From: Syntrophotalea acetylenivorans
GTDB lineage: Bacteria > Desulfobacterota > Desulfuromonadia > Desulfuromonadales > Syntrophotaleaceae
Direction of reading: 5' to 3'
Assembly (NCBI RefSeq): GCF_001887775.1
Contig: NZ_CP015519.1
Span: 3,036,001-3,100,000 of the forward strand
Length of the DNA: 64,000 nucleotides
Made by a program: the position numbers and the translations under genes. Positions 9,456-42,227 of this stretch are shown here, in pieces. The first letter of the stretch is position 1; every line of letters begins with the position of its first letter. The notes below the pieces were generated by a model. It was not told the DNA's origin, searched no databases, and worked only from the letters and a program-made list of their open reading frames with translations.

Positions 9456-10740
9456 ACATAGGTAACACTTTAGTTCAGGTACATGGGTAACACTTTTTGT
9501 ATCCTATAGGCACTTTCTACAAGGAGGTGCCCATGCCCTGGAAAGAGGTGAAACCTATGGACCAGAAGCTGCTGTTTATTGCCGACCACCTTCGAGCGAT
9601 GGACACCTTCAAAGGCCTTTGTCACCGTTACGGTATTAGCCGAAAGACCGGCTACAAGTGGGTGGCTCGCTACAGGGAACTAGGTTTCGAGGGGTTGCAA
9701 GACCAACCTCGGAAGCCCCATCAACACCCCCTGAAGACACCCTTTACCGTACGCAAAGCGATCATTGGCCTCCGTTCAAGCCAGCGGGATCCGCCGGGGC
9801 CGAAAAAGATTCAAGTGCTACTGAGGCAGAACCACCCAGAATGGGACATCCCTTCCAAGACGACCATCTACAAGGTCCTGGCGGAGGAAGGATTGATTCG
9901 TCCTCAAAGACGGCGCAAACCGGTTCCTGTCGGTCAGCAGCCCTTTTCTCCAGTGCATCACCCGAACGATGTCTGGTCGGCGGACTTCAAAGGGCAATTC
10001 AAGACTAGAGATGGCACTTGGTGTTATCCACTCACCGTAATGGATCATCAATGCCGTTACCTTTTAGAATGCATAAATTTTCCAGGGCCGCGGCTAGAAC
10101 CAACCAGAGACGCTTTTGAATCCCTTTTCCGGGAGTATGGGTTGCCATGGCGCATTCGTACCGATAATGGCGTACCCTTTGCCTCTAACTCGCCCGGTGG
10201 ACTGTCCCAGCTATCCAAATGGTGGATTCGCCTGGGCATCGTGCCAGAACGAATTGAACCGGGAAAGCCTCAACAAAATGGGCGGCATGAACGGATGCAC
10301 AGAACACTTAAGAACGCTACGGCCATTCCTCCGGCGCCAACAGCCCAGCTTCAACAGCAGGCGTTTGATGCATTTCGCCAGCAGTACAATAACGAACGCC
10401 CTCATGAAAGCCTTGGACAAACAACACCGGCATCGAAGTACAGTCCCTCAACACGCAGCATGCCTGAAAAGCTACCGGAGATAGAGTATCCTGGCTACTT
10501 TCGAATTGCCTTAGTTCATCACAGCGGCATCATTCATCATCAAGGGCATCGTGTTTACGTCGCCGGCCTTCTCAAGAGCGAAAAGGTCGGTGTCGAAGAA
10601 ACCGCTGATGGCATCTGGGACGTTCATTTTGGACCATTGAGATTAGGCAGCTTCGATATGCGGGATATCAAGAAAGCCCACAACGACTACTTGAAGCTTA
10701 ATGTGTAACCTATGTATGCGAACTTTTGTGTTACCTATGT
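9456..10740 (+). mobile_element. IS481-family insertion sequence, apparently complete
   Basis: The element is about 1285 bp. The left end starts ACATAGGTAACAC and carries a second block TACATGGGTAACAC 21 bp inside. The right end, read on the minus strand, starts ACATAGGTAACAC with TACATAGGTTACAC inside. The matched terminal region is therefore about 41 bp with two transposase-binding-like repeats at each end. One intact transposase fills the interior. I see no clear target-site duplication immediately outside the repeats, so exact boundaries are uncertain by a few bases. It lies between the cupin gene and the terminator at 9251-9288. Confidence 0.85.
9533..10708 (+). CDS. IS481-family transposase
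   Basis: A 391-residue DDE transposase. The N-terminal helix-turn-helix region covers about 15-65 (YGISRKTGYKWVARYRELG), followed by an integrase core with first Asp in WSADFKGQF, second Asp in RTDNGVPF and the Glu in GRHERMHRTLK. The reading frame is uninterrupted, so the element may be active. The start at 9533 is chosen because AAGGAGGT lies at ideal spacing; a start at 9497 would add 12 residues. The stop lies about 30 bp before the right terminal repeat. Confidence 0.92.
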   Translation: MPWKEVKPMDQKLLFIADHLRAMDTFKGLCHRYGISRKTGYKWVARYRELGFEGLQDQPRKPHQHPLKTPFTVRKAIIGLRSSQRDPPGPKKIQVLLRQNHPEWDIPSKTTIYKVLAEEGLIRPQRRRKPVPVGQQPFSPVHHPNDVWSADFKGQFKTRDGTWCYPLTVMDHQCRYLLECINFPGPRLEPTRDAFESLFREYGLPWRIRTDNGVPFASNSPGGLSQLSKWWIRLGIVPERIEPGKPQQNGRHERMHRTLKNATAIPPAPTAQLQQQAFDAFRQQYNNERPHESLGQTTPASKYSPSTRSMPEKLPEIEYPGYFRIALVHHSGIIHHQGHRVYVAGLLKSEKVGVEETADGIWDVHFGPLRLGSFDMRDIKKAHNDYLKLNV

Positions 10741-19425: not shown

Positions 19426-19677
19426 CTAAAAGACTTCCCACCAGGAGAATTGTGAAAGATTAGGAGTGCATTGCCGGGCCGATGGGCCAGACCGGATAAA
19501 AGAAGGGGGGGCGCCGGTTTTCTTTTTGCCGATATCGGCCATGAAATTCTGAATATCAGGCGACAGCATGAAGTCGGCAAGGGCTTTCGCTCCGGTACGG
19601 TTGACCTGCGGATGGCGGTCCGGGCCGTAGGATTTCGTAGAGATCTGCAGGCTTGGGATGAAGCCAGAACGGGTCAC
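19426..19677 (-). pseudogene. C-terminal remnant of a TupA-like tungstate-binding protein
   Basis: An 83-codon frame contains DRHPQVNRTGAKALADFML followed by SPDIQNFMADIGKKKTGAP. This resembles the last 45 or so residues of TupA/ModA-type periplasmic oxyanion-binding proteins (pattern: HPxVNxxGAKAFADFM, then GxxxxGxPLF). The signal peptide and ligand-binding lobes are missing, and the tail after GAPPSF departs from the family. I call it a decayed gene fragment. It matters because it lies next to the ModE-like operator at 19861. Resemblance was judged by eye. Confidence 0.6.
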
Positions 19678-19840: not shown

Positions 19841-19869
19841 TTGACAGCGGTGAATGGGTTCGTTATAGT
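19841..19869 (+). promoter_or_regulatory. Sigma-70 promoter of the TonB receptor gene
   Basis: TTGACA at 19841-19846, a 17-bp spacer, and TATAGT at 19864-19869: close to consensus. It reads toward the receptor start at 19998, leaving a leader of about 120 nt. The 24-bp operator-like palindrome starts three bases before the -10. Confidence 0.8.
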
Positions 19870-19884
19870 CGCGCGATTATAGCG
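19861..19884 (+). promoter_or_regulatory. ModE-like operator 1
   Basis: Half-sites CGTTATA and TATAGCG are separated by exactly 10 bp (GTCGCGCGAT). The reverse complement of the right half is CGCTATA, so the halves differ at one position, and the inner bases extend the symmetry to 10 of 12. Spacing and half-site match the ModE operator as I remember it from E. coli (CGTTATA-N10-CATAACG). It covers the -10 box, where a bound protein would repress. An identical half-site pair occurs at 25556-25579. The identity of the regulator is inferred; no modE gene is in the window. Confidence 0.75.
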
Positions 19885-19997
19885 CTAATTAAAAGTAGAA
19901 TTTGTTGTGAAATGTATTTTGGTCTCGGAAGGCTCTATACAAGGTTTGCGACCCATGGAGTCCCCAATAACGATGAAAGATGAAAACAGGAGGAACT

Positions 19998-21959
19998 ATG
20001 AGAACTGGTTGGTTTGCGGCATTGACCGCACTGGCTCTGCTAGCGACGCCTTTGGCGACCGGCACGGCTCTGGCTGCCGACGACGGTGTCTATCGTCTCG
20101 GCGAAGTTGTTGTTTCCGGTGAACAAGAGGGGGTCGAGGCCATCGGCACCACCCACAAGGTAACTGCCAAGGAAATCGAAACACGCGGCGTACGCACCCT
20201 CGACGAAGCCATCGACATGCTGCCCGGTGTGCAAGTCCGTACGGCTGCAGACGGTGCTCCGCGTATCGACATGCGCGGGTTCCGCACCCGTCACGTCAAG
20301 CTGTTGCTCAACGGTACACCCTTCAACGGCACCAACGACGGTCAGTTCGACCCTTCGTTGATTTCGGTGGAGAATATCGCCGAGATCACAGTCACCACCG
20401 GTGGCGGTTCCGAACTCTACGGTTCGGGTGGTAACGCCGGGATTATCAATATTGTCACCAAGAAGGGCACCAAAGGTGCTAACGGTTCCATGGGTGTTGA
20501 ACTGTCCGAGGTCGATGCCACCTTGTTGCGGGCCACCAGCTCCTACGGTACGGAAAAATACGATGTCTTTGTCAGTGGCAGCTACTACGAGCGTGATGCC
20601 TATAGGATGTCAAACCATTACGGCGAAGAACTAAATGAAGATGGCGACGAGCGGGAAAACAGCGACCGTGATCGTAAAAACTTCTTTGCCAACTTCGGTT
20701 ATCAACCGACCGACGCTACGCTGCTAGGGATGACCTTCAGCTATCTCAAAGGAGAGCGGGGTAAGCCGCCTATTACTCTTGAGGGTTACAATAGTAAGAA
20801 GGGGACGGGTGATGTTTTTGCCAAAACGATAAAATATCAACGGCAGGAAGACGAAGAATTCAACGTTCAGTTGGCCGCCAGCCACAACTTTGCCGGGCCT
20901 CTTAGTGTCAAGGGTTGGGCTTATTTTAATCGTCTTGATGTAGATGAGGAAGAGTTTGAAGATGACACTTATTCGACACTCAAAAACGGAAAAAGTGTTT
21001 ATTCCGAAACGGAAATCTCCGGTGCTAACCTGCAGTTGTCTTATGATACGCAGAATTCCGGTCGGGCGACTCTGGGTCTGATGGTGGAAAACGACGACTA
21101 TGAAAGCGAAGGAGATGATGGAGTAGAGATAGACAACGGAGATTTTCAGCTTTACTCGGCAAGCCTCGAATACGAAGTTTCCCCGATGGACAAACTCGGT
21201 GTGGTTCTCGGTGCGGGTGCTCACTTGCAGGATCGTGAAAGCGATAATGAAGAAGACTTTTCCTATCTTGTCGGTCTGACTTACGACCTGTCCGAGGGAA
21301 CCCGACTCAAGGCCTCTCACGCTCGCAAGGTGCGTTTCCCGACTATTCGTGACCTTTATGACACGGATGATGGCAAGGTGAACGAAGACCTAAAAGCGGA
21401 GACCACTTGGCATTACGAAGCTGGTATCGAGCAGGTTCTGCCGGCCAAGACCCTGTTGTCGGTAACCGGTTTCTATATCGATATCGAAGATTACATCGAG
21501 AAAGTCAATGATGTAAGGCAAAATTTCGATGAGTACGAATTCTACGGTGTGGAAGTCGGGGCGGAGAATCGTTACTTTGACCGGCTGTTCTTGCGTGTCA
21601 GCTATACCTACATGAGCACCGAGGATAAGTCGGACGATACCGAACGGGATGAGCTGCAGAATCGGCCCGAGCACAAGGTCACCCTTGAATCGACCTGTAG
21701 TCTGCCTTGGGGTCTTACCGCTTATGCAGGTGCTCAATACATGACCGACAACTATTATTACAGCGTTGACGGTAACGAAGAGCAGGACAAATTGTCGGAT
21801 ATCTTCCTGGTCGACTTCAAGCTCAATAAGGCGGCTGCCAACGGCGCTATCGATCTCTATGTCGGAGTCGACAACGTTTTCGACGAAGATTACGAGCAGA
21901 GCTACGGTTTCCCCTTGGCCGGCCGTACTTTTTATGGTGGCGCGACCTGGAAGTTCTAA
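19998..21959 (+). CDS. TonB-dependent outer-membrane receptor
   Basis: A 653-residue receptor. The signal peptide covers 1-27 (cleavage near TALA/ADD), and a TonB-box-like stretch LGEVVVSG lies near 33-40. A plug domain follows (TLDEAIDMLPGVQV, GGGSELYGSGGNAGIINIVTKKG), then a 22-strand-type barrel ending in phenylalanine (ATWKF). AGGAGG five bases upstream fixes the start. The ligand is unknown from sequence. The ModE-like operator and the tupA remnant suggest molybdate, tungstate or a chelate of them, and the nearby ExbB-ExbD-TonB could energise it. A haem or siderophore ligand remains possible. A strong terminator follows. Confidence 0.93.
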   Translation: MRTGWFAALTALALLATPLATGTALAADDGVYRLGEVVVSGEQEGVEAIGTTHKVTAKEIETRGVRTLDEAIDMLPGVQVRTAADGAPRIDMRGFRTRHVKLLLNGTPFNGTNDGQFDPSLISVENIAEITVTTGGGSELYGSGGNAGIINIVTKKGTKGANGSMGVELSEVDATLLRATSSYGTEKYDVFVSGSYYERDAYRMSNHYGEELNEDGDERENSDRDRKNFFANFGYQPTDATLLGMTFSYLKGERGKPPITLEGYNSKKGTGDVFAKTIKYQRQEDEEFNVQLAASHNFAGPLSVKGWAYFNRLDVDEEEFEDDTYSTLKNGKSVYSETEISGANLQLSYDTQNSGRATLGLMVENDDYESEGDDGVEIDNGDFQLYSASLEYEVSPMDKLGVVLGAGAHLQDRESDNEEDFSYLVGLTYDLSEGTRLKASHARKVRFPTIRDLYDTDDGKVNEDLKAETTWHYEAGIEQVLPAKTLLSVTGFYIDIEDYIEKVNDVRQNFDEYEFYGVEVGAENRYFDRLFLRVSYTYMSTEDKSDDTERDELQNRPEHKVTLESTCSLPWGLTAYAGAQYMTDNYYYSVDGNEEQDKLSDIFLVDFKLNKAAANGAIDLYVGVDNVFDEDYEQSYGFPLAGRTFYGGATWKF

Positions 21960-21988
21960 TCGAACGAAGTTGGTTTAGCTAACAATTG

Positions 21989-22023
21989 CGGCCGGATCCC
22001 ATTGAGGAGTCCGGCCGTTTTTT
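21989..22023 (+). terminator. Rho-independent terminator after the TonB receptor
   Basis: Stem CGGCCGGA / TCCGGCCG with a 13-base loop, followed by six T residues, 30 bp after the receptor stop. Confidence 0.92.
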
Positions 22024-22109
22024 ATGGTGCTTGGTACTTTTCGCAACTTGTGTGAAGGAATACAGGGGCAAAGAATTCAAAAGATGATTTCTCTCGCAGA
22101 GATGCTTTT

Positions 22110-23294
22110 TCAGGGTCGGTTTTTTTTCGCAGCGTCGATTCCTCGTTCCACCAACCGATACACTTCCGGCAACGGCAGGCCGCAATCGATTGCCAGTTGG
22201 CGACAACTTTCATATTCCGGCACCGAGCGCAGTAGCACGTCTCCCTCATAGAAATGCTTGACCTGCGCTTTCCCGAGATTGGTGGTTACAGTACCCGGTT
22301 CGCTGTGCAGTTTGTAGCGGCTAGACTCCCGCCAGCGTACTCCTCCGGCGCTGCTTTCCCGCATTATGATTCGTGCCAGTTGTTCGGATAAATGGGGCGG
22401 GGCGATAACGGTCAAAGCTAAGCCTGGTCGATTCTTCTTCATCTGCAAGGCATTGTAACCGACATCAAAAGCTCCGGCTGTCAACAGGCTGTCCATCAGG
22501 GCGCCGAGCCATTCAGGGTTGGCGTCGTCTAGATGGGTTTCAAGGATCGCCACACGGTCCCGGTCGAGGGTTTCTTCTGCCCCTGTTTCACCGAGCAGGC
22601 CCCGCAGCAGGTTTGGTCGATCCCTCAGTTCCCGTTCCCCGGCTCCATAACCGGTTTTTCCCAGGATCATGGATGGCAGGGTGCCGAAGGTAGCGATTTC
22701 AGCGGCGATAGCCGCACCGGTAGGGGTGACCAGTTCGACTCCGGCAAAATCGTGGACTATCGGCAGGCCGTTAAGGATCTCCAGGGTAGCCGGGGCCGGC
22801 AGGGGAAAGCTGCCGTGGGCGCAGCGCACCGTGCCCCGGGTCATCGGCAGGGGGGTGCAGGCGACCTGCGGATTTCCCAGCAGATGCAAGCCGATGGCGG
22901 CACCGACAATATCGACGATGGAATCGAGCGCACCAACCTCGTGAAAATGGACCGTTTCCAGAGCAACGCCATGAATCCGGGCTTCCGCTTCACCGATGCG
23001 CCGAAAGATGCGCCGCGCCAGTTCTTTAACCGGAGAGGCCAGATCGCTGTCCATCAGCATGCGGTCGATGCCGCTCCAGGTGCGGTGATGGTGTTGCTCT
23101 TTGCAGTGCACGGTCAGTTTGCTGCCGGTAATGGCCTGGCGCTGAACGGTCTTCAGTTCCAGGCGGTAGCCGTCAACGGGTAGTTTCTGCAATTCAGCTT
23201 CGAGATCTGCCAGAGATAGTCCCAGATCGAGCAGCAGACCGAGAAACATGTCGCCGGAGATGCCGGAGAAGGTGTCGAGAAACAGGGTTTTCAT
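22110..23294 (-). CDS. larC: Nickel-pincer cofactor biosynthesis protein LarC
   Basis: LarC inserts nickel into the sulfurated pyridinium mononucleotide to finish the nickel-pincer cofactor, in a CTP-dependent reaction. The 394-residue protein is one continuous frame (in Lactobacillus it is made through a frameshift). It shows LFLDTFSGISGDMFLG at the start, a His-rich QHHHRT near 68-72 and HFHEVGALDSIVDIVG at 116-131. ATG at 23294 overlaps the larB stop by four bases. Neither larA nor larE is in the window, so the client enzyme is unknown. Seen: family and order; inferred: pathway completeness. Confidence 0.92.
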   Translation of the reverse strand: MKTLFLDTFSGISGDMFLGLLLDLGLSLADLEAELQKLPVDGYRLELKTVQRQAITGSKLTVHCKEQHHHRTWSGIDRMLMDSDLASPVKELARRIFRRIGEAEARIHGVALETVHFHEVGALDSIVDIVGAAIGLHLLGNPQVACTPLPMTRGTVRCAHGSFPLPAPATLEILNGLPIVHDFAGVELVTPTGAAIAAEIATFGTLPSMILGKTGYGAGERELRDRPNLLRGLLGETGAEETLDRDRVAILETHLDDANPEWLGALMDSLLTAGAFDVGYNALQMKKNRPGLALTVIAPPHLSEQLARIIMRESSAGGVRWRESSRYKLHSEPGTVTTNLGKAQVKHFYEGDVLLRSVPEYESCRQLAIDCGLPLPEVYRLVERGIDAAKKNRP

Positions 23295-24049
23295 GATGAA
23301 TTCCGTCGGTTGATGCGGGCGGCGGCGCAAGCGGCACCGAAACCGTTGTCAATGTTGACCACCGTGACCCCGCTGGCGCAGGAATTGAGCATGCCGAGCA
23401 GTGCAGCGATGCCGCCGAAGCTGGCTCCGTATCCGACCGAGGTCGGCACTGCGATGACCGGGGACGCCACCAGGCCGCCGATCACCGAAGGCAGAGCGCC
23501 TTCCATGCCGGCTACCACGATGACTACTGCTGCGCTGCGAAGCAGGTCCAGTCGATCGAAGAGGCGGTGAATCCCGGCGACTCCGACATCAACCAGTTCT
23601 TCCACCTCGTTGCCAAGCATACGCGCTGTCTCGGCTGCTTCCCGGGCCACGGGCAGGTCCGAGGTGCCGGCACAGACCACCAGGATCTTGCCAAGGCCGG
23701 TGATTTCAATCGGGTTCTGTATCAGGGAAAAAGTTCGAGCCTCGCTGTCATAAACACCTTGGGGATATTCAGCCAACAGTTGTGCGGCCTTATCCTCGTC
23801 GAGGCGGGTGATCAGCACGTTGCTGTCACGGCGCAGCATGGCCGCGACAATAGTAATCATTTGAATCGCAGTTTTGCTGGCCCCGAGAATCGTTTCCGGA
23901 GCGCCCTGACGCAGTTGCCGATGATGATCGAGGCAGGCAATGTCGAGGTCTTCGTAGGGTAGGGTGGCGAGTCGTTCCAGGGCCTGGTCGACGGAAACCT
24001 GGCCGTCGCTCAAGCTTTCCAGTAATTTTTTCAGGTTGTCGGGATTCAA
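23291..24049 (-). CDS. larB: Pyridinium-3,5-biscarboxylic acid mononucleotide synthase LarB
   Basis: LarB carboxylates nicotinic acid adenine dinucleotide and releases AMP, the first step to the nickel-pincer cofactor. The 252-residue protein has a helical N-terminal part and a PurE/AIR-carboxylase-like C-terminal domain from about 120 (GKILVVCAGTSDLPVAREA, VVIVVAGMEGALPSVIGGL and VPTSVGYGASFGGIAALLGM). It is co-translated with larC. A repeat-filled gap of about 210 bp separates it from the DRTGG gene upstream. Confidence 0.93.
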   Translation of the reverse strand: MNPDNLKKLLESLSDGQVSVDQALERLATLPYEDLDIACLDHHRQLRQGAPETILGASKTAIQMITIVAAMLRRDSNVLITRLDEDKAAQLLAEYPQGVYDSEARTFSLIQNPIEITGLGKILVVCAGTSDLPVAREAAETARMLGNEVEELVDVGVAGIHRLFDRLDLLRSAAVVIVVAGMEGALPSVIGGLVASPVIAVPTSVGYGASFGGIAALLGMLNSCASGVTVVNIDNGFGAACAAARINRRNSS

Positions 24050-24087
24050 GGGATCTCCAAAAAATTAACAGGCAAAATCACAATCTC

Positions 24088-24192
24088 TATCTCACGCTCG
24101 TTCGTTTGGCTCACTCAAGACGCAAAGCCGAAACGAAAAATCTGGAAAGAAGGTTTTGATTGTCCTGGCGTCTTTGCGGTTTTGCGTGAGAA
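24088..24192. repeat. Palindromic element, family C copy 2
   Basis: CTCACGCTCGTTCG, GGCTCACTCAAGACGCAAAG on the left and GGCGTCTTTGCGG, TTTGCGTGAG on the right form an imperfect inverted repeat in the gap between larB and the DRTGG gene. Similar to 7162-7280, and to 50147-50258 in opposite orientation. Confidence 0.7.
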
Positions 24193-24259
24193 ACGTTTGT
24201 CGGTTTTTTTGGCCTTTAAAGATGCTAGCTCGCTTCGCCTCAGCGGCTTGTTGAAAATT

Positions 24260-25354
24260 TCAGAACAGATCATCAATGGCGTCGAAGTCCAGCTCGGTTT
24301 CTGCCAGCGATTGCAGCAAGACGATCTTTTCCTGGTCCTCGGCATCTATTTTGGCCAGGTCATTGGCGATGGTGGAAAAAACTTCCCCGCTGCTGTAGCT
24401 CTCGGCACGCATATAGGGGATCTGGCTGCGGTCGAGAATTTGCTGGGTAACTTTGGAGATGGGAAACAGGCCGGGGATCACCAATCCGGCAATTTTGCTT
24501 CGGTATTCGGGAATGTTGTACAAAGCCGCCAGGGTTACCAGGAGTTCGTTGCGGGTGCTAGTGACGATCAGTAAAGAAGATTCTTCCAGGAGGTCGTGAA
24601 CCCGTTGGGTGGAGGCAGCACCGAGCTGCGTATGGTGAACGATACGCGGTCCGGCACTCTGCTCGCCCTTGAGAGGGACGCCGAGCAGTTTGGCTATGTG
24701 GTTGAGGGTCGGATTCGCCAGCACCGGCGAGAAGTCGAAGCCGGGTACGACCTTGAAAGGTTCTCCGCTGAAGGCTTGCTGCAGGTAGGCCATGGTTTCC
24801 TGCCTTTTTTTCGACAGCAACTTGTTGATCAACATCATCCGTAAGTCGGCCTTTTCCTGGAGGAGCAGGGCCATGTTGAGGTGGACATTGTCAATCACGC
24901 GACCGATGCCGGCATCAGTCACCATCAGGATCGGTGCGTCGAGTAAACGCGCTATACGGGCATTGTTCAGACCGACCACCGACCCGACGCCACTATGACC
25001 GGCCCCCTCGATAATCAACAGGTCGCAGCGTTGCTCCAGTTCCCGGGCTGCTTGCAGGATTTGTACTTCGAGATCGCCGGGCGAGATCTTTTTATCGAGG
25101 ATCTGGCGAGTGGAGTTGGGCTGTAAAACCACCGGCGACATATAATCAAGGTCTTCTTCCAGGTCGTAGATTCTGGCCAGCAAAGCGGCATCCTGGTCGA
25201 CCCACCGGCCGTTAAATAAGGTCGGTTTCGGACCCAGTGGTTTCATAAACCCGACCCGGCGATACTTTTTGCGGGCCATATGCAACAGGGCGATGCTGGT
25301 GGTGGTTTTGCCACATTGCTGTCCGGTAGCGGCAATAAAGATTTTTTTGCACAC
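24260..25354 (-). CDS. DRTGG / phosphotransacetylase N-terminal-like P-loop protein
   Basis: A 364-residue protein with a dethiobiotin-synthetase-like NTPase domain at the N-terminus. A P-loop variant ATGQQCGKTTT lies at 8-18, with LLIIEGAGHSGVGSVVGLNNAR near 112-133. A DRTGG-type domain follows from about 215 to 325. This two-domain layout also forms the N-terminus of some phosphate acetyltransferases, but here the catalytic acetyltransferase domain is absent. It has been annotated elsewhere as a cobyrinic-acid synthase-like protein; I would not assign a reaction. It is divergent from the ECF operon, with a 316-bp shared gap. Confidence 0.75.
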   Translation of the reverse strand: MCKKIFIAATGQQCGKTTTSIALLHMARKKYRRVGFMKPLGPKPTLFNGRWVDQDAALLARIYDLEEDLDYMSPVVLQPNSTRQILDKKISPGDLEVQILQAARELEQRCDLLIIEGAGHSGVGSVVGLNNARIARLLDAPILMVTDAGIGRVIDNVHLNMALLLQEKADLRMMLINKLLSKKRQETMAYLQQAFSGEPFKVVPGFDFSPVLANPTLNHIAKLLGVPLKGEQSAGPRIVHHTQLGAASTQRVHDLLEESSLLIVTSTRNELLVTLAALYNIPEYRSKIAGLVIPGLFPISKVTQQILDRSQIPYMRAESYSSGEVFSTIANDLAKIDAEDQEKIVLLQSLAETELDFDAIDDLF

Positions 25355-25535
25355 GGCGTTGCCTTCCGAGCATGAAAGTTCAGTTAATAGTTTGGCACTA
25401 TTATATAGGCAAGCTCTGTCATTTCAAAGACTTGTTAGCCAGCCGTATGAAATGAATGGTTTTTGGCCTGTAGCAGGGAAATCAAAGAATTGGTTCGGAA
25501 GCATTTTAATCCGACTTCGGGGTTGGGGTAAATGT

Positions 25536-25564
25536 TTGACTCAGCAATAGAAATTCGTTATATT
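25536..25564 (+). promoter_or_regulatory. Sigma-70 promoter of the ECF transporter operon
   Basis: TTGACT at 25536-25541, a 17-bp spacer, and TATATT at 25559-25564, reading toward the ATPase start at 25671 with a leader of about 100 nt. The layout repeats that of the TonB-receptor promoter: the operator starts three bases upstream of the -10 in both. The rest of the 25355-25670 gap shows no gene. Confidence 0.8.
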
Positions 25565-25579
25565 CCACCGGGTATAGCG
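25556..25579 (+). promoter_or_regulatory. ModE-like operator 2
   Basis: CGTTATA, ten bases (TTCCACCGGG), then TATAGCG. Both half-sites are identical to those at 19861-19884, while the spacer is different. Conserved half-sites with a free spacer are what a dimeric regulator site looks like. It overlaps the -10 of the ECF promoter. ModE assignment rests on consensus memory. Confidence 0.75.
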
Positions 25580-25670: not shown

Positions 25671-27029
25671 ATGGGCGTAATTTTACGATTGAAGAAGTTT
25701 TCCTTCACCTATCCGGAGGTGGAGGCGCCCGTTTTGCAGGACCTTAACCTGGAGGTCGAAGCCGGCCGTTGTTACTGTCTGACCGGGCCGACGGGTTCGG
25801 GAAAGACGACTTTGGCTCTGGCCCTCAAAGGGTTGTTAACTGCCGGACGGTACGAGGGCGAAATCGAGGTGCCTTCGGTAACTGAGTCGACCGACATGAA
25901 TGTCGGCATGGTACTGCAAGACCCGGAGGTTCAACTACTGACGAGCACGGTGGGTGCGGAGGTGGCCTTCGGTCTGGAAAACCTTTGTGTCGAACCTGCC
26001 GAGATGCCGGAGCGGGTTTCCGCTGCCGTACAGGCCGTCGGACTCGATAAACCGCTGGATTATCCGGTGGATAAGCTTTCCATGGGGCAGAAGTATCGCT
26101 TGCTCATTGCGGCATTACTGGTTATGAAGCCTCGGTTACTTATTCTAGATGAGCCCGGCGCCCAGCTCGACCCGGAAGGTCTGGAGCTTCTTCGTAAGTG
26201 CCTGCGTCGCCTCAAGCAGGACGGAGTCGCTGTTATTTTATGCGAACACCGTCCTGATTCGTTGCTGAGCGAAATCGATACCTTCTGGCAGCTTGATGGC
26301 AGCGGCAGTTTCGCCGAAGGACGCTACCGAGGGGAGGCGCTCGCTCCCTTGGCCCCTTCATCATCGGTCGCTGGAGAAGAGACGGTGCTGCAGGTTCAGG
26401 ATCTTTCCTTTGTCGGGGTCGGTGATCAGCCGGTCTGGTCGCAGGTCTCCTTTCGTGCCGAAAAAGGCCAGCGTTATGCCCTTACCGGTCTGAATGGCAC
26501 CGGCAAGACGACCTTGCTGCGCTGCCTGGCCGGCTTCCTCAGTCCGCACCAGGGAGAGGTACAGATTCTCGGCGGTGCTCCCGATGCCAACCGTTTGCGT
26601 GGCAGGCTAGGATGCCTGTTTCAGAATCCGCAGAAGCAGATCTTTGAAAATACCGTCGGCGATGAGGTGGCTTTTCCTCTGAAGCGCTTGGGGGTTAACA
26701 AGGGGACCGTCGAAGAGCGGGTCGAAGAAACCCTGGCAGCCTGCGGAATCAGCCATCTCATCGATCAGTCGCCCCACAAACTCAGCTACGGTCAGAAGCA
26801 TCTGGTGGCGTTGGCTTCGGTGCTGGCTCCACGCCCTGACTTGTTGTTTCTCGATGATCCTTTGGCCGGGCTGGATGATGGTCACAGCAGTAAGGTGATG
26901 GAGTTGCTGGTGCATTACAATAGGCAACACGGCACGACCATGCTCTGGACCTTCCACGATCCGGAGGCCTGGGAGGGGTGGGCTGATCAGGTGCTGCACC
27001 TTGAAGGAGGCCGTCTTGTTGTCAGTTAA
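25671..27029 (+). CDS. ECF-type ABC transporter ATPase, two fused nucleotide-binding domains
   Basis: 452 residues carrying two complete ABC domains, equal to a fused EcfA-EcfA' pair. Domain 1 has Walker A GPTGSGKT at 39-46, Q-loop Q83, a signature variant LSMGQ at 136-140 and Walker B LLILDEP near 156-162. Domain 2 has Walker A GLNGTGKT at 273-280, signature LSYGQ at 371-375 and Walker B LLFLDDP at 391-397, where the usual catalytic Glu is Asp. It would power the membrane complex made by the next two genes. The proposed start has only a weak ribosome site. Under ModE-like operator 2. Confidence 0.92.
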   Translation: MGVILRLKKFSFTYPEVEAPVLQDLNLEVEAGRCYCLTGPTGSGKTTLALALKGLLTAGRYEGEIEVPSVTESTDMNVGMVLQDPEVQLLTSTVGAEVAFGLENLCVEPAEMPERVSAAVQAVGLDKPLDYPVDKLSMGQKYRLLIAALLVMKPRLLILDEPGAQLDPEGLELLRKCLRRLKQDGVAVILCEHRPDSLLSEIDTFWQLDGSGSFAEGRYRGEALAPLAPSSSVAGEETVLQVQDLSFVGVGDQPVWSQVSFRAEKGQRYALTGLNGTGKTTLLRCLAGFLSPHQGEVQILGGAPDANRLRGRLGCLFQNPQKQIFENTVGDEVAFPLKRLGVNKGTVEERVEETLAACGISHLIDQSPHKLSYGQKHLVALASVLAPRPDLLFLDDPLAGLDDGHSSKVMELLVHYNRQHGTTMLWTFHDPEAWEGWADQVLHLEGGRLVVS

Positions 27030-27708
27030 ACTCTTTTCACCTAGAAAGGTCAGTTTGCCGTCGGCGTCCCTCGAGGGTCCTGCCCCGGCCGGTGATGCCA
27101 AGTGGGTTGGTCTACGAATGCTTCTGGCCCTGACCCTCTCCTGCCTGGCCTTTGCCGCCCGCACCATTCCCTTTCTGCTGGTGTTGACTACCGTCAACCT
27201 GGCTTTGCTCTGGTACTTGGGCAATGGCCAGATATCCCTGCGCCGAGAACTTAAAGCTTTCGTTTGGCAGACCCTGGTTATCCTGGCGCTCTATCTGATC
27301 CGGTTTCAGAACCTGACCGGCCTCTGGGGAGGCTTCCAGATTTCCTGGCAGCTGTTTTTGGCTCTGTTGCCGAGCATGACCTTCGTGCGCAGCACCTCTC
27401 AAACGCGCATCGTTCAGGCCCTGAATCGGGTCATGCCCTGCCGCACGGCTTTTGTGCTCAGTACCTGCCTCAAGTTTGCTCCCCATTTGTTGGCTGAGAT
27501 ACGCAGTATCTACGAAGGGCAGGTTTTGCGCGGTGCGCGCATCTTGCCCAGAGACCTGGCGAAACCCTGGCACTGGATCGATCTGTTGCATTGCGTGGTG
27601 GTCCCGGCGGTGGTGCAAAGCATGGCTTTGGCCGGAAATATCGCTTTAGCGGCGAGAGCCCGCGATTTTGGCAGTCAGCCCAAGCGCACCTGTTGGCCCG
27701 GGCTATAA
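27019..27708 (+). CDS. ECF transporter transmembrane coupling protein (EcfT-like)
   Basis: About 229 residues with five or so hydrophobic helices (roughly 35-50, 50-72, 85-103, 110-127 and 190-210). The C-terminal cytoplasmic part has two Ala-Arg-Gly-like coupling motifs, VLRGARIL and LAARARDFG, which in EcfT contact the two ATPases. The start is a TTG at 27019 (or 27016), placed 5-8 bases after AAGGAGG; the frame opens further upstream at TTG 27001 within the ATPase gene. It overlaps the ATPase 3' end. Substrate specificity lies in the next gene, not here. Confidence 0.88.
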   Translation: MSVKLFSPRKVSLPSASLEGPAPAGDAKWVGLRMLLALTLSCLAFAARTIPFLLVLTTVNLALLWYLGNGQISLRRELKAFVWQTLVILALYLIRFQNLTGLWGGFQISWQLFLALLPSMTFVRSTSQTRIVQALNRVMPCRTAFVLSTCLKFAPHLLAEIRSIYEGQVLRGARILPRDLAKPWHWIDLLHCVVVPAVVQSMALAGNIALAARARDFGSQPKRTCWPGL

Positions 27709-27765
27709 GTGATTCTGATAAGTAGATCTAAACGAGCCGCTGTTGCTCAGGAGAAAATCTCAATT

Positions 27766-28317
27766 ATGAATCCAGTTGTTGAACCAGCCGGCGGTCTGTT
27801 TCGTCTGTCCCTTAAGGATGCGCTTTTTATCGGCTTCTGTGCCGTTTTTGCGGTATTGGCCAGAATGATGCTGCGGCTGCATCTGCATATTTCCGGTCAT
27901 GCCATGCTGGTGACCGCCTTCTTTTTGTTATTGGCCCGGGGCAGCGTCCGCTACCGGTTCGCCGCCAGTTTTGCCGGTCTACTGGCCGGCAGCGCTTCGA
28001 TTTTTCTCGGGTTCGCCAAGAGCGGCCCCTTCATGCTGGTCAAGTATCTGGCGGTAGCCCTGGTCATCGATCTGGCCGGCCTGCTGATGCCGAATCTGTT
28101 TCGTAACTATTTCTGGTGTGCTCTGGTTGGTGGAAGTGCCGGCGCAACCAAGTTTTTTACCGCCTATAGTGTGAATTTTTTAGCCGGCATGGACCGTACG
28201 GTTAATTTTCAGGCGTCGCTGCTGGAAGCGGCTGGCGCGATCTTGTTCGGGGTACTCGGTGGTCTGTTGGTCCCCGTAGTTCTTCGCCGTTTGCATGCCT
28301 ACGGCGTCATATCGTAA
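27766..28317 (+). CDS. Putative ECF S-component (substrate-binding membrane protein)
   Basis: A 183-residue, very hydrophobic protein with about six membrane helices, the size and fold class of ECF substrate-capture proteins. It has no motif I can match to known S-components for biotin, thiamin, folate, riboflavin, cobalt or nickel. Notable residues include HLHISGHAMLVTAFFLLLARG near helix 2 and KFFTAYSVNFLAGMDR before the last helices. ATG 27766 is chosen with AGGAG upstream; the frame is open to GTG 27709. Position right after EcfT supports the role. With the ModE-like operator, a Mo/W-related ligand is the leading hypothesis. Confidence 0.75.
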   Translation: MNPVVEPAGGLFRLSLKDALFIGFCAVFAVLARMMLRLHLHISGHAMLVTAFFLLLARGSVRYRFAASFAGLLAGSASIFLGFAKSGPFMLVKYLAVALVIDLAGLLMPNLFRNYFWCALVGGSAGATKFFTAYSVNFLAGMDRTVNFQASLLEAAGAILFGVLGGLLVPVVLRRLHAYGVIS

Positions 28318-28353: not shown

Positions 28354-29094
28354 ATGAATGTATTGATCTGTATCGACGACACGGATAATCTCGAATCCCG
28401 CGGCACCGGTGAATTGGCCACCATTATGGCTGAAGAAATCGAACGCCGCTCCTGGGGGCGCTGCGACTTCGTTACCCGCCATCAATTGTTGGTCCATCCC
28501 GACGTGCCCTATACCTCCCATAATAGCTCCATGTGTTTTTCCGCAGATATCGATCCGACTATTCTCGATTCATTGATCACCTATGCCGGCGACTTTCTTC
28601 AGCAGGAGAGCGCCGAAGGCTCCGATCCGGGCTTGTGCGTGTCGGTGATGGAGCAATTGAACCAGCCCGAGGCTGTCATCGCTTTTGGTCATTCCGCCAA
28701 AAAGGAGGTGTTGACCAAACAGGCCGCTTATGACATGGCCGCCCAGCTCGGCGTACATCTTTCCGAGCATGGCGGCACCGGCCAAGGAGTGGTTGGGGCA
28801 TTGGCCGGTATCGGTCTGCGCCTGAGTGGCAACGACGGCCGGATGAAGGGTTGGCTGAAAATCCATACTGAGAATGGCTTGGCCACGGTTGCTGACATCA
28901 TGGCACAGACCTCTCTGGGCGGTGTGCGCACGATGGACGGCAAATTGTTGTCAGAAACAGAAATAGTTGAAGTGGAGAACAAACCGAAGGCTGTTCTGCT
29001 CGATGGCAAGATCTACATGATGGTTTCGCCGCATGCCGATGAAGGTCGGGCTCGTTGGCGGACTACTCCGCGCAGTCAACTGAAAAAGTTTTGA
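28354..29094 (+). CDS. IDDTD-motif protein resembling the N-terminal domain of TiaS
   Basis: 246 residues starting MNVLICIDDTDNLESRGTG. The IDDTD stretch recalls the start of archaeal tRNA(Ile2) agmatinylcytidine synthetase, but the protein is far shorter and the context is a transporter operon. Other features are SEHGGTGQGVVGALAGIGLRLSG near 142-164 and a C-terminal basic tail. Databases sometimes label relatives as ABC substrate-binding proteins, but no signal peptide is visible. It follows the S-component by 36 bp and probably closes the ECF operon. Function unknown. The stop codon overlaps the start of a palindromic repeat. Confidence 0.7.
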   Translation: MNVLICIDDTDNLESRGTGELATIMAEEIERRSWGRCDFVTRHQLLVHPDVPYTSHNSSMCFSADIDPTILDSLITYAGDFLQQESAEGSDPGLCVSVMEQLNQPEAVIAFGHSAKKEVLTKQAAYDMAAQLGVHLSEHGGTGQGVVGALAGIGLRLSGNDGRMKGWLKIHTENGLATVADIMAQTSLGGVRTMDGKLLSETEIVEVENKPKAVLLDGKIYMMVSPHADEGRARWRTTPRSQLKKF

Positions 29095-30644: not shown

Positions 30645-31340
30645 ATGGAAAGTCTCGTTGCTTTTTTGAGCAAAGCCGGTCCTATTGGCATTGCCATTGT
30701 CGGCTCATCGGTAATTGCGCTGTTTATCATTATCGAACGCTGCTGGGCCTTTCGCCAATTGCGACTCAAGGATGCCCGGGTTTTGCACCGGTTGCGTAAG
30801 CGGGTTACCGAAGGATCCTATACCGAAGCCATGGCCTTACTGCGGGAGGAATCTCATCCTTTGGCCATCGCCATGACGCCGATACTAACCCGCCTCGCCG
30901 GGTCACAACGGACCACGCGCGCCGCTCTGGAAAAATCTATTGCCCACGTCGCAGCCCGTGAAATTCGCCAGATGGAGCGATTTTTACCCACCCTGTTTTT
31001 GATCTCCAGCGTAACACCGCTGCTCGGTCTATTCGGTACCGTTACCGGCATGATCAAGGCCTTTCAGGCCATTCAACATCTCGGCGGCAAGGTCAATGCC
31101 TCGGTTCTGGCCGGCGGTATCTGGGAAGCCATGTTGACAACCGCTCTTGGTCTCGGGGTTGCGATTCCGGCCATGGTGGCCCACAACTATCTACAGGGCA
31201 AGGTGCATGTGGTGGTAGCCGACATCAAGGAAGAGTCGGGAGTATTGCTCGACGAGCTGGAAGAGGCCGGTTGCCTGAATTCGACGAACAAGCCCGCTTC
31301 GGTTCATGAGAGACACGCCGCTCAACGGGAGAATGGCTGA
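30645..31340 (+). CDS. exbB: ExbB/TolQ-family proton channel protein
   Basis: 231 residues, MotA/TolQ/ExbB family, with three membrane helices (about 12-30, 110-135 and 155-180) and the typical TPLLGLFGTVTGMIKAFQAI motif near 125-145. With ExbD it forms the proton-driven motor for TonB at the inner membrane. AGGGAG precedes the ATG. The stop overlaps the exbD start (TGATG). TolQ is an alternative, but the tonB-like gene downstream and the absence of tolA/tolB/pal favour ExbB. Confidence 0.88.
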   Translation: MESLVAFLSKAGPIGIAIVGSSVIALFIIIERCWAFRQLRLKDARVLHRLRKRVTEGSYTEAMALLREESHPLAIAMTPILTRLAGSQRTTRAALEKSIAHVAAREIRQMERFLPTLFLISSVTPLLGLFGTVTGMIKAFQAIQHLGGKVNASVLAGGIWEAMLTTALGLGVAIPAMVAHNYLQGKVHVVVADIKEESGVLLDELEEAGCLNSTNKPASVHERHAAQRENG

Positions 31341-31735
31341 TGGATATCCCGGTACGGACCAAAAGCACCGGGCTTAACCTGACTCCGCTTATCGACATCG
31401 TCTTTTTGTTGCTGGTGTTTTTTCTTTTGACCACCCAGTTTATCGAAGAAGACGGTATCGGAGTCAAACTGCCCAGTTCCAACTCTGTCACCACCCGCGA
31501 TCGAGATGAGGTAGCCATAGCCATTACCAAAAAAGGGGATCTCTTTGTCAAGGGGCAACGATTGCCCCTCGCCAGCCTGACCGCTAAGTTGGAACAAGTT
31601 CTTGGCGCCGATACAACGGTTGTCGTGCGAGGAGACCGTGAAGTGGCCCTGCAGACCTTGGTCTCGGTGATGGAAAAGGCCAAAGAAGCCGGGGCCGCCC
31701 GGCTGGTGGTCGCAACTCTTCAAGAGGGTAACTGA
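31340..31735 (+). CDS. exbD: ExbD/TolR-family protein
   Basis: 131 residues with a short cytoplasmic N-terminus, one membrane helix at about 12-33 containing the conserved Asp in NLTPLIDIVFLLLVFFLL, and a periplasmic domain with VVVRGDREVALQTLVSVM. Partner of ExbB in proton-driven energy transfer. Translationally coupled to exbB; tonB starts 3 bp later. Confidence 0.9.
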   Translation: MDIPVRTKSTGLNLTPLIDIVFLLLVFFLLTTQFIEEDGIGVKLPSSNSVTTRDRDEVAIAITKKGDLFVKGQRLPLASLTAKLEQVLGADTTVVVRGDREVALQTLVSVMEKAKEAGAARLVVATLQEGN

Positions 31736-31738
31736 GGT

Positions 31739-32440
31739 ATGGTAGCCAGGCAACGATGGGCCTTGGGAGGCTCTCTGCTCATACATGCGGCTCTGGTGTT
31801 GCTTCTTGGTGCCAGTCTGATGACTCCCCAGCGAATCGTTAATCGTATCGAAATCGATCTTGAAGGAGTGGCCGCTCCCAACCGGGCACTCGGTGTGCAG
31901 ACCCCGAACCCTTCGCAGATTCCCCATCAGCCTACCACCGCAGCTGTGCCGGTTCAGACTACGGTACCCATGCACCTGCAGATGCCGCAGGTGGTACCGC
32001 CGCGTCCAGCGACCAGTTTCGATGCCGACGCCTCTCTGGTCGCCCCGGCGGCTCCAGCACTGCCCGGCAGCCCTGCGGTTGCCTTACAACGACCGGTTGG
32101 AGGTACTGCGGGCGGGGGAAGTGGAAAGCATGATACTGGACGCGGCTCTGCTCTTGATGGGTATCGCAACAGGGTTCGTATGCATATCGATCGGGCCAAA
32201 CGATATCCGAAGATTGCCCAGCAACGGCGTATCGAAGGGATGGCTGTCGTTTCCTTTCGGCTTAGTTCCGCCGGTAAAGTCATTGCTGGCCCAGACCTGG
32301 TCAAGGGGTCCGGCTACGGTCTGATCGACAGAGCTTCTCTGCGAGCGGTCACCCGGGGGGCTCCCTATCCTAAATATCCCGGGCCTGCAGATCCCGCCGG
32401 TCATGCTTTTGAAGTGCCGGTGCGCTTTTATCTGCGGTAA
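31739..32440 (+). CDS. tonB: TonB-like energy-transducing protein
   Basis: 233 residues: an N-terminal signal-anchor helix at about 8-25, a Pro-rich periplasmic linker (about 45-125), and a TonB C-terminal domain from about 150 (YPKIAQQRRIEGMAVVSFRL through PKYPGP to EVPVRFYLR). It spans the periplasm to contact outer-membrane receptors. It could serve the receptor at 19998, 10 kb away, though genomes of this group usually have several TonB systems. No ModE-like box was seen upstream of exbB. Confidence 0.88.
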   Translation: MVARQRWALGGSLLIHAALVLLLGASLMTPQRIVNRIEIDLEGVAAPNRALGVQTPNPSQIPHQPTTAAVPVQTTVPMHLQMPQVVPPRPATSFDADASLVAPAAPALPGSPAVALQRPVGGTAGGGSGKHDTGRGSALDGYRNRVRMHIDRAKRYPKIAQQRRIEGMAVVSFRLSSAGKVIAGPDLVKGSGYGLIDRASLRAVTRGAPYPKYPGPADPAGHAFEVPVRFYLR

Positions 32441-40940: not shown

Positions 40941-42227
40941 CTATTTCTTTCTTTCGTCCATCACCTTATAGGCACAGAACTCGCCGCACATGGTGCAGGC
41001 GCCGTGTTCCTCGTCGACCCCCGATTCGCCCCGTCTCTTTCGGGCAAGTTCCGGGTCTATGGCCAGGCAGTATTGGGTTTCCCAGTCGAGGGCCTTGCGC
41101 GCTTTGCTCATGGCGATATCTTTTTCCATGGCTCCGGGCAGGCCTTTGACGATGTCGGCGGCGTGGGCGGCGACGCGGGTGGCCATCACACCTTCGTGCA
41201 CATCTTTGACGTTGGGCAGACAGAGGTGCTCGCTGGGGGTGACGTAGCAAAGGAAGTCGGCCCCGGCGCTGGCGGCAATGGCGCCACCGATGGCACAGGT
41301 GATGTGATCGTAACCGGGGGCGATATCGGTGACCAGCGGGCCGAGTACGTAGAAGGGCGCGCCGTGGCAGAGCCGTTTTTGCAGCTGGATGTTGGCCTCG
41401 ATCTGGTTAAGGGGCACGTGACCGGGGCCTTCGATCATGACCTGGATGCCGGCGTCCCAGGCGCGCTGGGTGAGCTCACCAAGGATGATCAGTTCGTGGA
41501 TCTGTGCCCGGTCGGTGGCGTCGGCCAGACATCCGGGACGGAAACCATCGCCGAGGGACAGGGTGGCGTCGTAGGGCTTAACCAGTTCCAGCAGGCGGTC
41601 GTAGTGTTCGAAAAGGGGGTTTTCAGCATCGTTGTGGGCCATCCAGGCTACGGTGAAAGAACCGCCTCTGGAGACTACCTCCATGATCCGGCCTTCGTTG
41701 TCCATACGCTCGACGGTGGCGCGGGTTACGCCGCAGTGCACGGTGATGAAATCGACGCCGTCATCGAGATGTTTCTTGATGCCGTCAAAGATTTCATCGA
41801 CGCTCATATCGACAATGGCCTTGCCTTTTTTTACCACCGTGTCGCAGGCGGCCTGATAGAGGGGCACACTGCCGATGCAGGCCTGGGTCTCGGCGATGAT
41901 GGCGTGGCGGATTTCATCAATGGGTCCGCCGGTGGACAGGTCCATGATGGCGTCGGCCCCGGCAGCTACCGCGACTCGGGCTTTTTCCAGTTCCTTGTCG
42001 ATGCTGGTGTCGTCCTTGCTGGTACCGATATTGGCATTGACCCGGGTTGGCAGGCCCTTGCCCACGGCCAGCGGCAGGCCGTTGGTGTGCCTGTTGTTAT
42101 GGCAGACGATGGCCGTGCCTTCGGCGATCCGTTGGCGCAGGATTTCCGCATCGATACCGGCAGCCTCGGCAGCCTGTTGCATTTTATCGGAGACGATGCC
42201 CTGGCGGGCGAGTTCGAGCTGGGTCAT
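40941..42227 (-). CDS. thiC: Phosphomethylpyrimidine synthase
   Basis: Radical-SAM enzyme converting aminoimidazole ribotide to the thiamin pyrimidine HMP-phosphate. The 428-residue short form lacks the N-terminal extension of the E. coli protein. Conserved stretches include NANIGTS, DLSTGGPIDEIR, TVHCGVTR and EGPGHVPLNQIEANI. The C-terminal cluster motif reads CTMCGEFC, that is C-x2-C-x3-C, one residue shorter than the C-x2-C-x4-C of E. coli ThiC. The close paralogue BzaF (hydroxybenzimidazole synthase) is the alternative, but position 74 bp after thiE-thiD and downstream of a TPP riboswitch supports ThiC. Confidence 0.93.
   Translation of the reverse strand: MTQLELARQGIVSDKMQQAAEAAGIDAEILRQRIAEGTAIVCHNNRHTNGLPLAVGKGLPTRVNANIGTSKDDTSIDKELEKARVAVAAGADAIMDLSTGGPIDEIRHAIIAETQACIGSVPLYQAACDTVVKKGKAIVDMSVDEIFDGIKKHLDDGVDFITVHCGVTRATVERMDNEGRIMEVVSRGGSFTVAWMAHNDAENPLFEHYDRLLELVKPYDATLSLGDGFRPGCLADATDRAQIHELIILGELTQRAWDAGIQVMIEGPGHVPLNQIEANIQLQKRLCHGAPFYVLGPLVTDIAPGYDHITCAIGGAIAASAGADFLCYVTPSEHLCLPNVKDVHEGVMATRVAAHAADIVKGLPGAMEKDIAMSKARKALDWETQYCLAIDPELARKRRGESGVDEEHGACTMCGEFCAYKVMDERKK

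Follow-up and report, generated by a model that had tools for sequence, protein, structure and literature searches.

Candidate ModE operators over the promoters of a TonB receptor and an ECF importer in Syntrophotalea acetylenivorans

Shared operator sites at two transport promoters

We analyzed a 64,000-bp stretch of the Syntrophotalea acetylenivorans genome (the window; positions 3036001-3100000 of a single contig of 3,218,469 bp), in which the promoter of a gene for a TonB-dependent outer-membrane receptor and that of an operon for an energy-coupling factor (ECF) importer carry the same inverted repeat over their -10 elements. The receptor, the ECF proteins EcfAA', EcfT and EcfS, and a TiaS/Mmp11-like protein are together called the cassette below, and the two repeats are named ModE boxes after their probable regulator. 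In window coordinates, the promoters and boxes are:

19841-19869, + strand: sigma-70 promoter of the TonB receptor gene, TTGACA-17-TATAGT; relatives show the same geometry
19861-19884, unstranded: ModE box 1, CGTTATAGTCGCGCGATTATAGCG, overlapping the -10 hexamer (19864-19869) of the TonB receptor promoter
25536-25564, + strand: sigma-70 promoter of the ECF operon, TTGACT-17-TATATT
25556-25579, unstranded: ModE box 2, CGTTATATTCCACCGGGTATAGCG, overlapping the -10 hexamer (25559-25564) of the ECF operon promoter

The original prediction, made from this DNA alone, had described two sites with the same half-sites and gap, differing spacers, and a start three bases ahead of the -10 element of a promoter with a 17-bp spacer, and the sequence bears this out in full. 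The half-sites CGTTATA and TATAGCG and the 10-bp gap between them are identical in the two 24-bp boxes while the spacers differ, both boxes match the inverted repeat CGNTATA-N10-TATANCG exactly, and at both of these strong promoters the -10 hexamer begins 3 nt after the operator start. The further claim that such agreement is unlikely by chance also held. With up to two mismatches allowed, boxes 1 and 2 were the sole matches in the window, and shuffled windows held 0.10 matches on average, with none of 100 reaching the observed count. Likewise, none of 400 shuffles of the receptor or the ECF upstream region equaled the real box match.

A genome-wide scan, which the original prediction had proposed, returned few places. 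CGNTATA-N10-TATANCG occurred exactly three times, against approximately 0.11 expected from base composition, and at one further place with one mismatch, while the reversed pattern, used as control, had no exact place and two at up to one mismatch. Widening the regulon by a scan at two mismatches yielded noise (73 places, versus 92 for the control pattern). All three exact places stand ahead of transport operons: besides boxes 1 and 2, the third (41681-41704 of the contig) is located 81 bp upstream of wtpABC, an ATP-binding cassette (ABC) operon for molybdate/tungstate that encodes a tungstate-binding WtpA passing the NCBIfam equivalog cut-offs, a permease, an ATPase, and a second WtpA. This third box overlaps a promoter, TTGACG-17-TATATT, in the same manner as the window boxes.

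ModE and the conservation of its putative sites

The original prediction had also proposed a search for a ModE homologue, and one is encoded in this genome (1704997-1705806; 269 aa). It consists of a winged helix-turn-helix and two TOBE/Mop domains and aligns over its full length with E. coli ModE (1b9m; E 1.6e-32); modC-modA-modB are encoded as well. In line with the predicted fit to a ModE operator, half-site and spacing agree with the E. coli-type ModE consensus quoted for Geobacter sulfurreducens (PMC545781, PMC2700814). The mod operons of Desulfuromonas are reported to have no E. coli-type ModE sites (PMC545781), and modCAB is likewise box-free here, with boxes located elsewhere.

We surveyed 136 genomes of the order for the same pattern. 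Given that exact boxes directly precede modE-wtpA (G022), modE-tupA (G070), modE-modA (G128) and modA (G099) operons, we assign the box to ModE; G102 carries one box ahead of modE, with one mismatch, and another, exact, that separates modE from modA. Long ModE genes were present in 18 of the 24 genomes that carry an exact box versus 23 of the 112 that lack one (p 6e-7, compared with p 0.03 for the control pattern) and in 16 of the 17 cassette genomes of the order (p 5e-9), and these box and cassette p values are optimistic because the genomes are related. In silico, ModE is close to certain to be the regulator of both sites.

The boxes precede the same genes in relatives, and modE or mod, tup and wtp genes elsewhere in the order. 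Box 1 is exact in G013 and has one mismatch in G011, G004 and G007, while box 2 has one mismatch in G013, G011, G012, G004 and G007. G005 retains both at one to two mismatches (box 1 at one), and G009 has the ECF box at two mismatches and a receptor upstream region without a clear box. In genomes of the order that encode ModE, a box with zero to two mismatches is present in 22 of the 23 upstream regions tested, and no more than 4 of 400 shuffles matched any one of these; shuffled upstream regions of the relatives rarely or never reached the conserved boxes. No box was seen in G110, the sole cassette genome within the order to lack a ModE domain. The window family's cassette promoters follow TTGAC(A/T)-N17/18-TATA(T/G)T, the box again beginning 3 nt ahead of the -10 element, and its wtpA promoters, beginning with TTGAC(A/T/G), share this geometry. 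The operator lies over molybdenum/tungsten (Mo/W) transport promoters of wtpABC in this genome and its relatives, and of mod and tup operons in other genomes.

Further box-like sites were observed in this genome and elsewhere in the survey. A second TonB receptor (L080:3062-5218) has a two-mismatch box approximately 100 bp upstream (G000 C1:2047317-2047340; L080:5318) and shares 52-57% identity with receptors of family f7 (L142, L143), which bear tandem ModE boxes, exact and with one mismatch; from this it is a probable further ModE target. A perfect palindrome, CGTTGTATTGCATGCTATACAACG, occupies an intergenic position after a gene for a CoA-binding protein (G000 C1:2073006-2073029; L079:5007). 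Next to this gene, exact ModE boxes occur in G006 and G009 (L013:1501; L016:1501), with no obvious target gene.

The cassette and its probable substrate

The genes concerned, and others near them in the window, are:

19466-19623, - strand: tupA remnant, the last ~53 codons, frameshifted (tblastn E 9e-19)
19998-21959, + strand: TonB-dependent outer-membrane receptor, Pfam plug and barrel domains; open reading frame 19980-21959, AGGAGG before the ATG at 19998
25671-27029, + strand: EcfAA', two fused ECF/CbiO-type ATPase domains, matching TIGR04520, TIGR04521 and cbiO in two stretches
27001-27708, + strand: EcfT, CbiQ-family coupling protein; homologues match PF02361
27766-28317, + strand: EcfS, putative substrate-binding S component, from fold match and conservation
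28354-29094, + strand: TiaS/Mmp11-like protein, a relative of the TiaS kinase domain with a DDTD motif; constant cassette member
30645-31340, + strand: ExbB
31340-31735, + strand: ExbD
31739-32440, + strand: TonB energy transducer

In the window's genus, the two operators flank larC, larB and an AAA_26/DRTGG gene (22110-25354), which in other families show no linkage to the cassette. A transposase/integrase-like open reading frame of 403 aa (9497-10708), judged from reading the sequence alone, appears to be an insertion element.

The window copy of EcfT had no PF02361 (CbiQ) match itself, and 11 of 12 aligned homologues had one (best 1.2e-20); at locus L026, EcfT is fused to EcfAA'. The reading frame of EcfS opens at 27709, while the start in relatives corresponds to the ATG at 27766. 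EcfS matched no Pfam or NCBIfam family, including the CbiM/NikM families by which a CbiMNQO or NikMNQO system would be recognized. Because a sequence search against solved structures gave no match, we used a fold search, in which the AlphaFold model of EcfS (pLDDT, the model's confidence score, 76) had as top PDB matches the ECF S components 5edl, ThiT and RibU (Foldseek probability 1.00, TM 0.5-0.6, E-values 1e-3 to 1e-2). The basic residues R56, H58, H64, R77 and K104 of EcfS are invariant or nearly so and would suit an anion site, although they prove nothing. We did not use the model of the TiaS-like protein, whose confidence was low (pLDDT 56). In a distant genome (L137:48-4045), a divergent S-component-like gene with 26% identity adjoins MoSto-like (molybdenum-storage-protein-like) and ModB/ModC-like genes.

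The gene succession TonB receptor-EcfAA'-EcfT-EcfS-TiaS/Mmp11-like is shared by four families of the order and, in varied form, by Desulfobacterota beyond it. In most of the window's family the cassette is split into two transcription units, both retaining a ModE box, and most other families have the receptor gene directly adjoining the ECF genes. This adjacency in other lineages strengthens the predicted control of receptor and ECF operon by one repressor. Several neighbors of the cassette point to Mo/W. The cassette operon of G076 begins with modE, and tupABC and moeA lie a short distance downstream of it. G013 and G011 carry an intact tupA that diverges from the receptor gene around the box, and tupA is also beside the cassette in G005. 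Sister genera have a MoSto gene near the cassette, as well as ExbB, ExbD and TonB genes; the MoSto gene of this genome is elsewhere. In G041, genes for an aldehyde oxidoreductase (AOR), moaA and MOSC, the last two read from sequence, are located beside it. AOR-family genes occur in 17 of 17 cassette genomes (p 0.03), and we gave this little weight because most other genomes also have them.

From known ModE action, a Mo/W-loaded ModE dimer would occupy the -10 element of each promoter and block RNA polymerase, and Mo/W scarcity would release ModE and jointly derepress the TonB receptor, the ECF importer and, elsewhere in the genome, wtpABC. The receptor on one side and EcfAA'-T-S with the TiaS/Mmp11-like protein on the other would be two halves of one uptake route, with ExbB-ExbD-TonB encoded downstream. 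From the linkage, we infer that the ligand is most likely tungstate, molybdate, or a chelate thereof. Overall, we assign a probability of roughly 0.75 to the reading that ModE represses a TonB and ECF route that probably serves for one of these.

Several observations weigh against Mo/W uptake under ModE control. No box with up to two mismatches precedes this genome's modCAB, modE or MoSto gene. Upstream regions of cassettes outside the order lacked boxes, a TunR-type motif (CGGTCACG-N14-CGTGACCG) sought in them was not found, and the ModE-like proteins encoded there are mostly short. The S components that match EcfS by fold bind vitamins, and the TiaS-like protein points to chemical modification of an organic compound. 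Such points would also be explained if ModE controlled both promoters while the cassette imported an organic compound (vitamin, pterin-like, phosphorylatable) needed with Mo/W enzymes and modified by the TiaS-like kinase relative. ThiT and RibU as closest structural matches of EcfS, a TiaS-type kinase-domain relative within the cassette, and box-free cassettes outside the order with few Mo/W neighbors are all consistent with this. However, release under Mo/W scarcity suits metal uptake better than cofactor salvage, the neighbors within the order (tupA, tupABC, modE, moeA, MoSto, AOR-moaA) speak for the metal, and the near-invariant basic residues of EcfS are such as an anion site might have. 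We therefore regard import of an organic compound as unlikely, albeit the leading alternative.

Given that the operator was assigned from consensus and context alone and that many genomes of the order also encode short ModE-like proteins, the box might instead belong to another regulator with a ModE-like operator. This is very unlikely, since several genomes have exact boxes directly before modE, the box fits the E. coli consensus, and G110 is without both ModE and box. A nickel or cobalt importer, slightly less credible still, would fit the T component of the CbiQ family and the nickel-cofactor genes larC and larB between the two operators, and the latter had prompted us to consider nickel as substrate. 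We rejected nickel because no family other than the window's has larBC near the cassette; moreover, EcfS has no CbiM/NikM match and its model has a vitamin-type S fold, and transport of either metal gives no reason for ModE control. A chance likeness of two AT-rich -10 regions has next to no probability. The left half-site does overlap the -10 hexamer, so that promoter conservation explains part of the agreement, but the right half-site TATANCG, outside the promoter hexamers, is conserved in relatives too, and the exact genome matches and the shuffled upstream regions described above argue against coincidence.

Comparison with known systems

Known high-affinity bacterial Mo/W uptake proceeds through binding-protein-dependent ABC importers, with outer-membrane crossing usually left to porins. 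While the operators described here belong to a known kind, the regulated TonB and ECF system appears to be undescribed in the literature searched: no such system was found in literature on ECF or TonB with Mo/W, a search that left subscription papers and regulon databases including RegPrecise outside its range. We lean, by a modest degree, towards an ECF importer that is equipped with a TonB receptor and ExbBD-TonB of its own and controlled by ModE, as a fourth Mo/W route beside Mod, Wtp and Tup, in which a vitamin-type S component would be adapted to a metal oxyanion. If true, this would mean that Mo/W, perhaps in chelated form, is actively taken up across the outer membrane and that ECF S components handle a new class of substrate.

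The closest counterpart in regulation is the ModE operator of E. coli and G. sulfurreducens (ATCGNTATATA-N6-TATATANCGAT; PMC545781, PMC2700814), which has half-sites and spacing as here, although the inner TA of each half is not retained in our boxes. A full-length ModE with two Mop domains and an operator ahead of a Mo/W ABC transporter are common to both, whereas here a TonB receptor and an ECF operon are among the targets, and modCAB and modE are box-free. WtpABC, TupABC and ModABC share with the cassette the apparent regulator and the probable substrate, and wtpABC of this genome bears the same box; in contrast to the ECF importer and TonB receptor of the cassette, they use a periplasmic binding protein and a canonical ABC permease.

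The cassette resembles group I ECF transporters (CbiMNQO, NikMNQO) in having its own EcfA ATPases, a CbiQ-type T component and an S component in one operon. It differs from them in an S component that is not CbiM/NikM and in the addition of the receptor, ExbBD-TonB, the TiaS-like protein and ModE control. TonB-dependent metallophore and B12 receptors are controlled by Fur or a cobalamin riboswitch. The cassette receptor has their plug and barrel domains, with ExbB-ExbD-TonB encoded nearby, but its sequence relation to receptors of known structure is weak, and it stands under ModE-type boxes.

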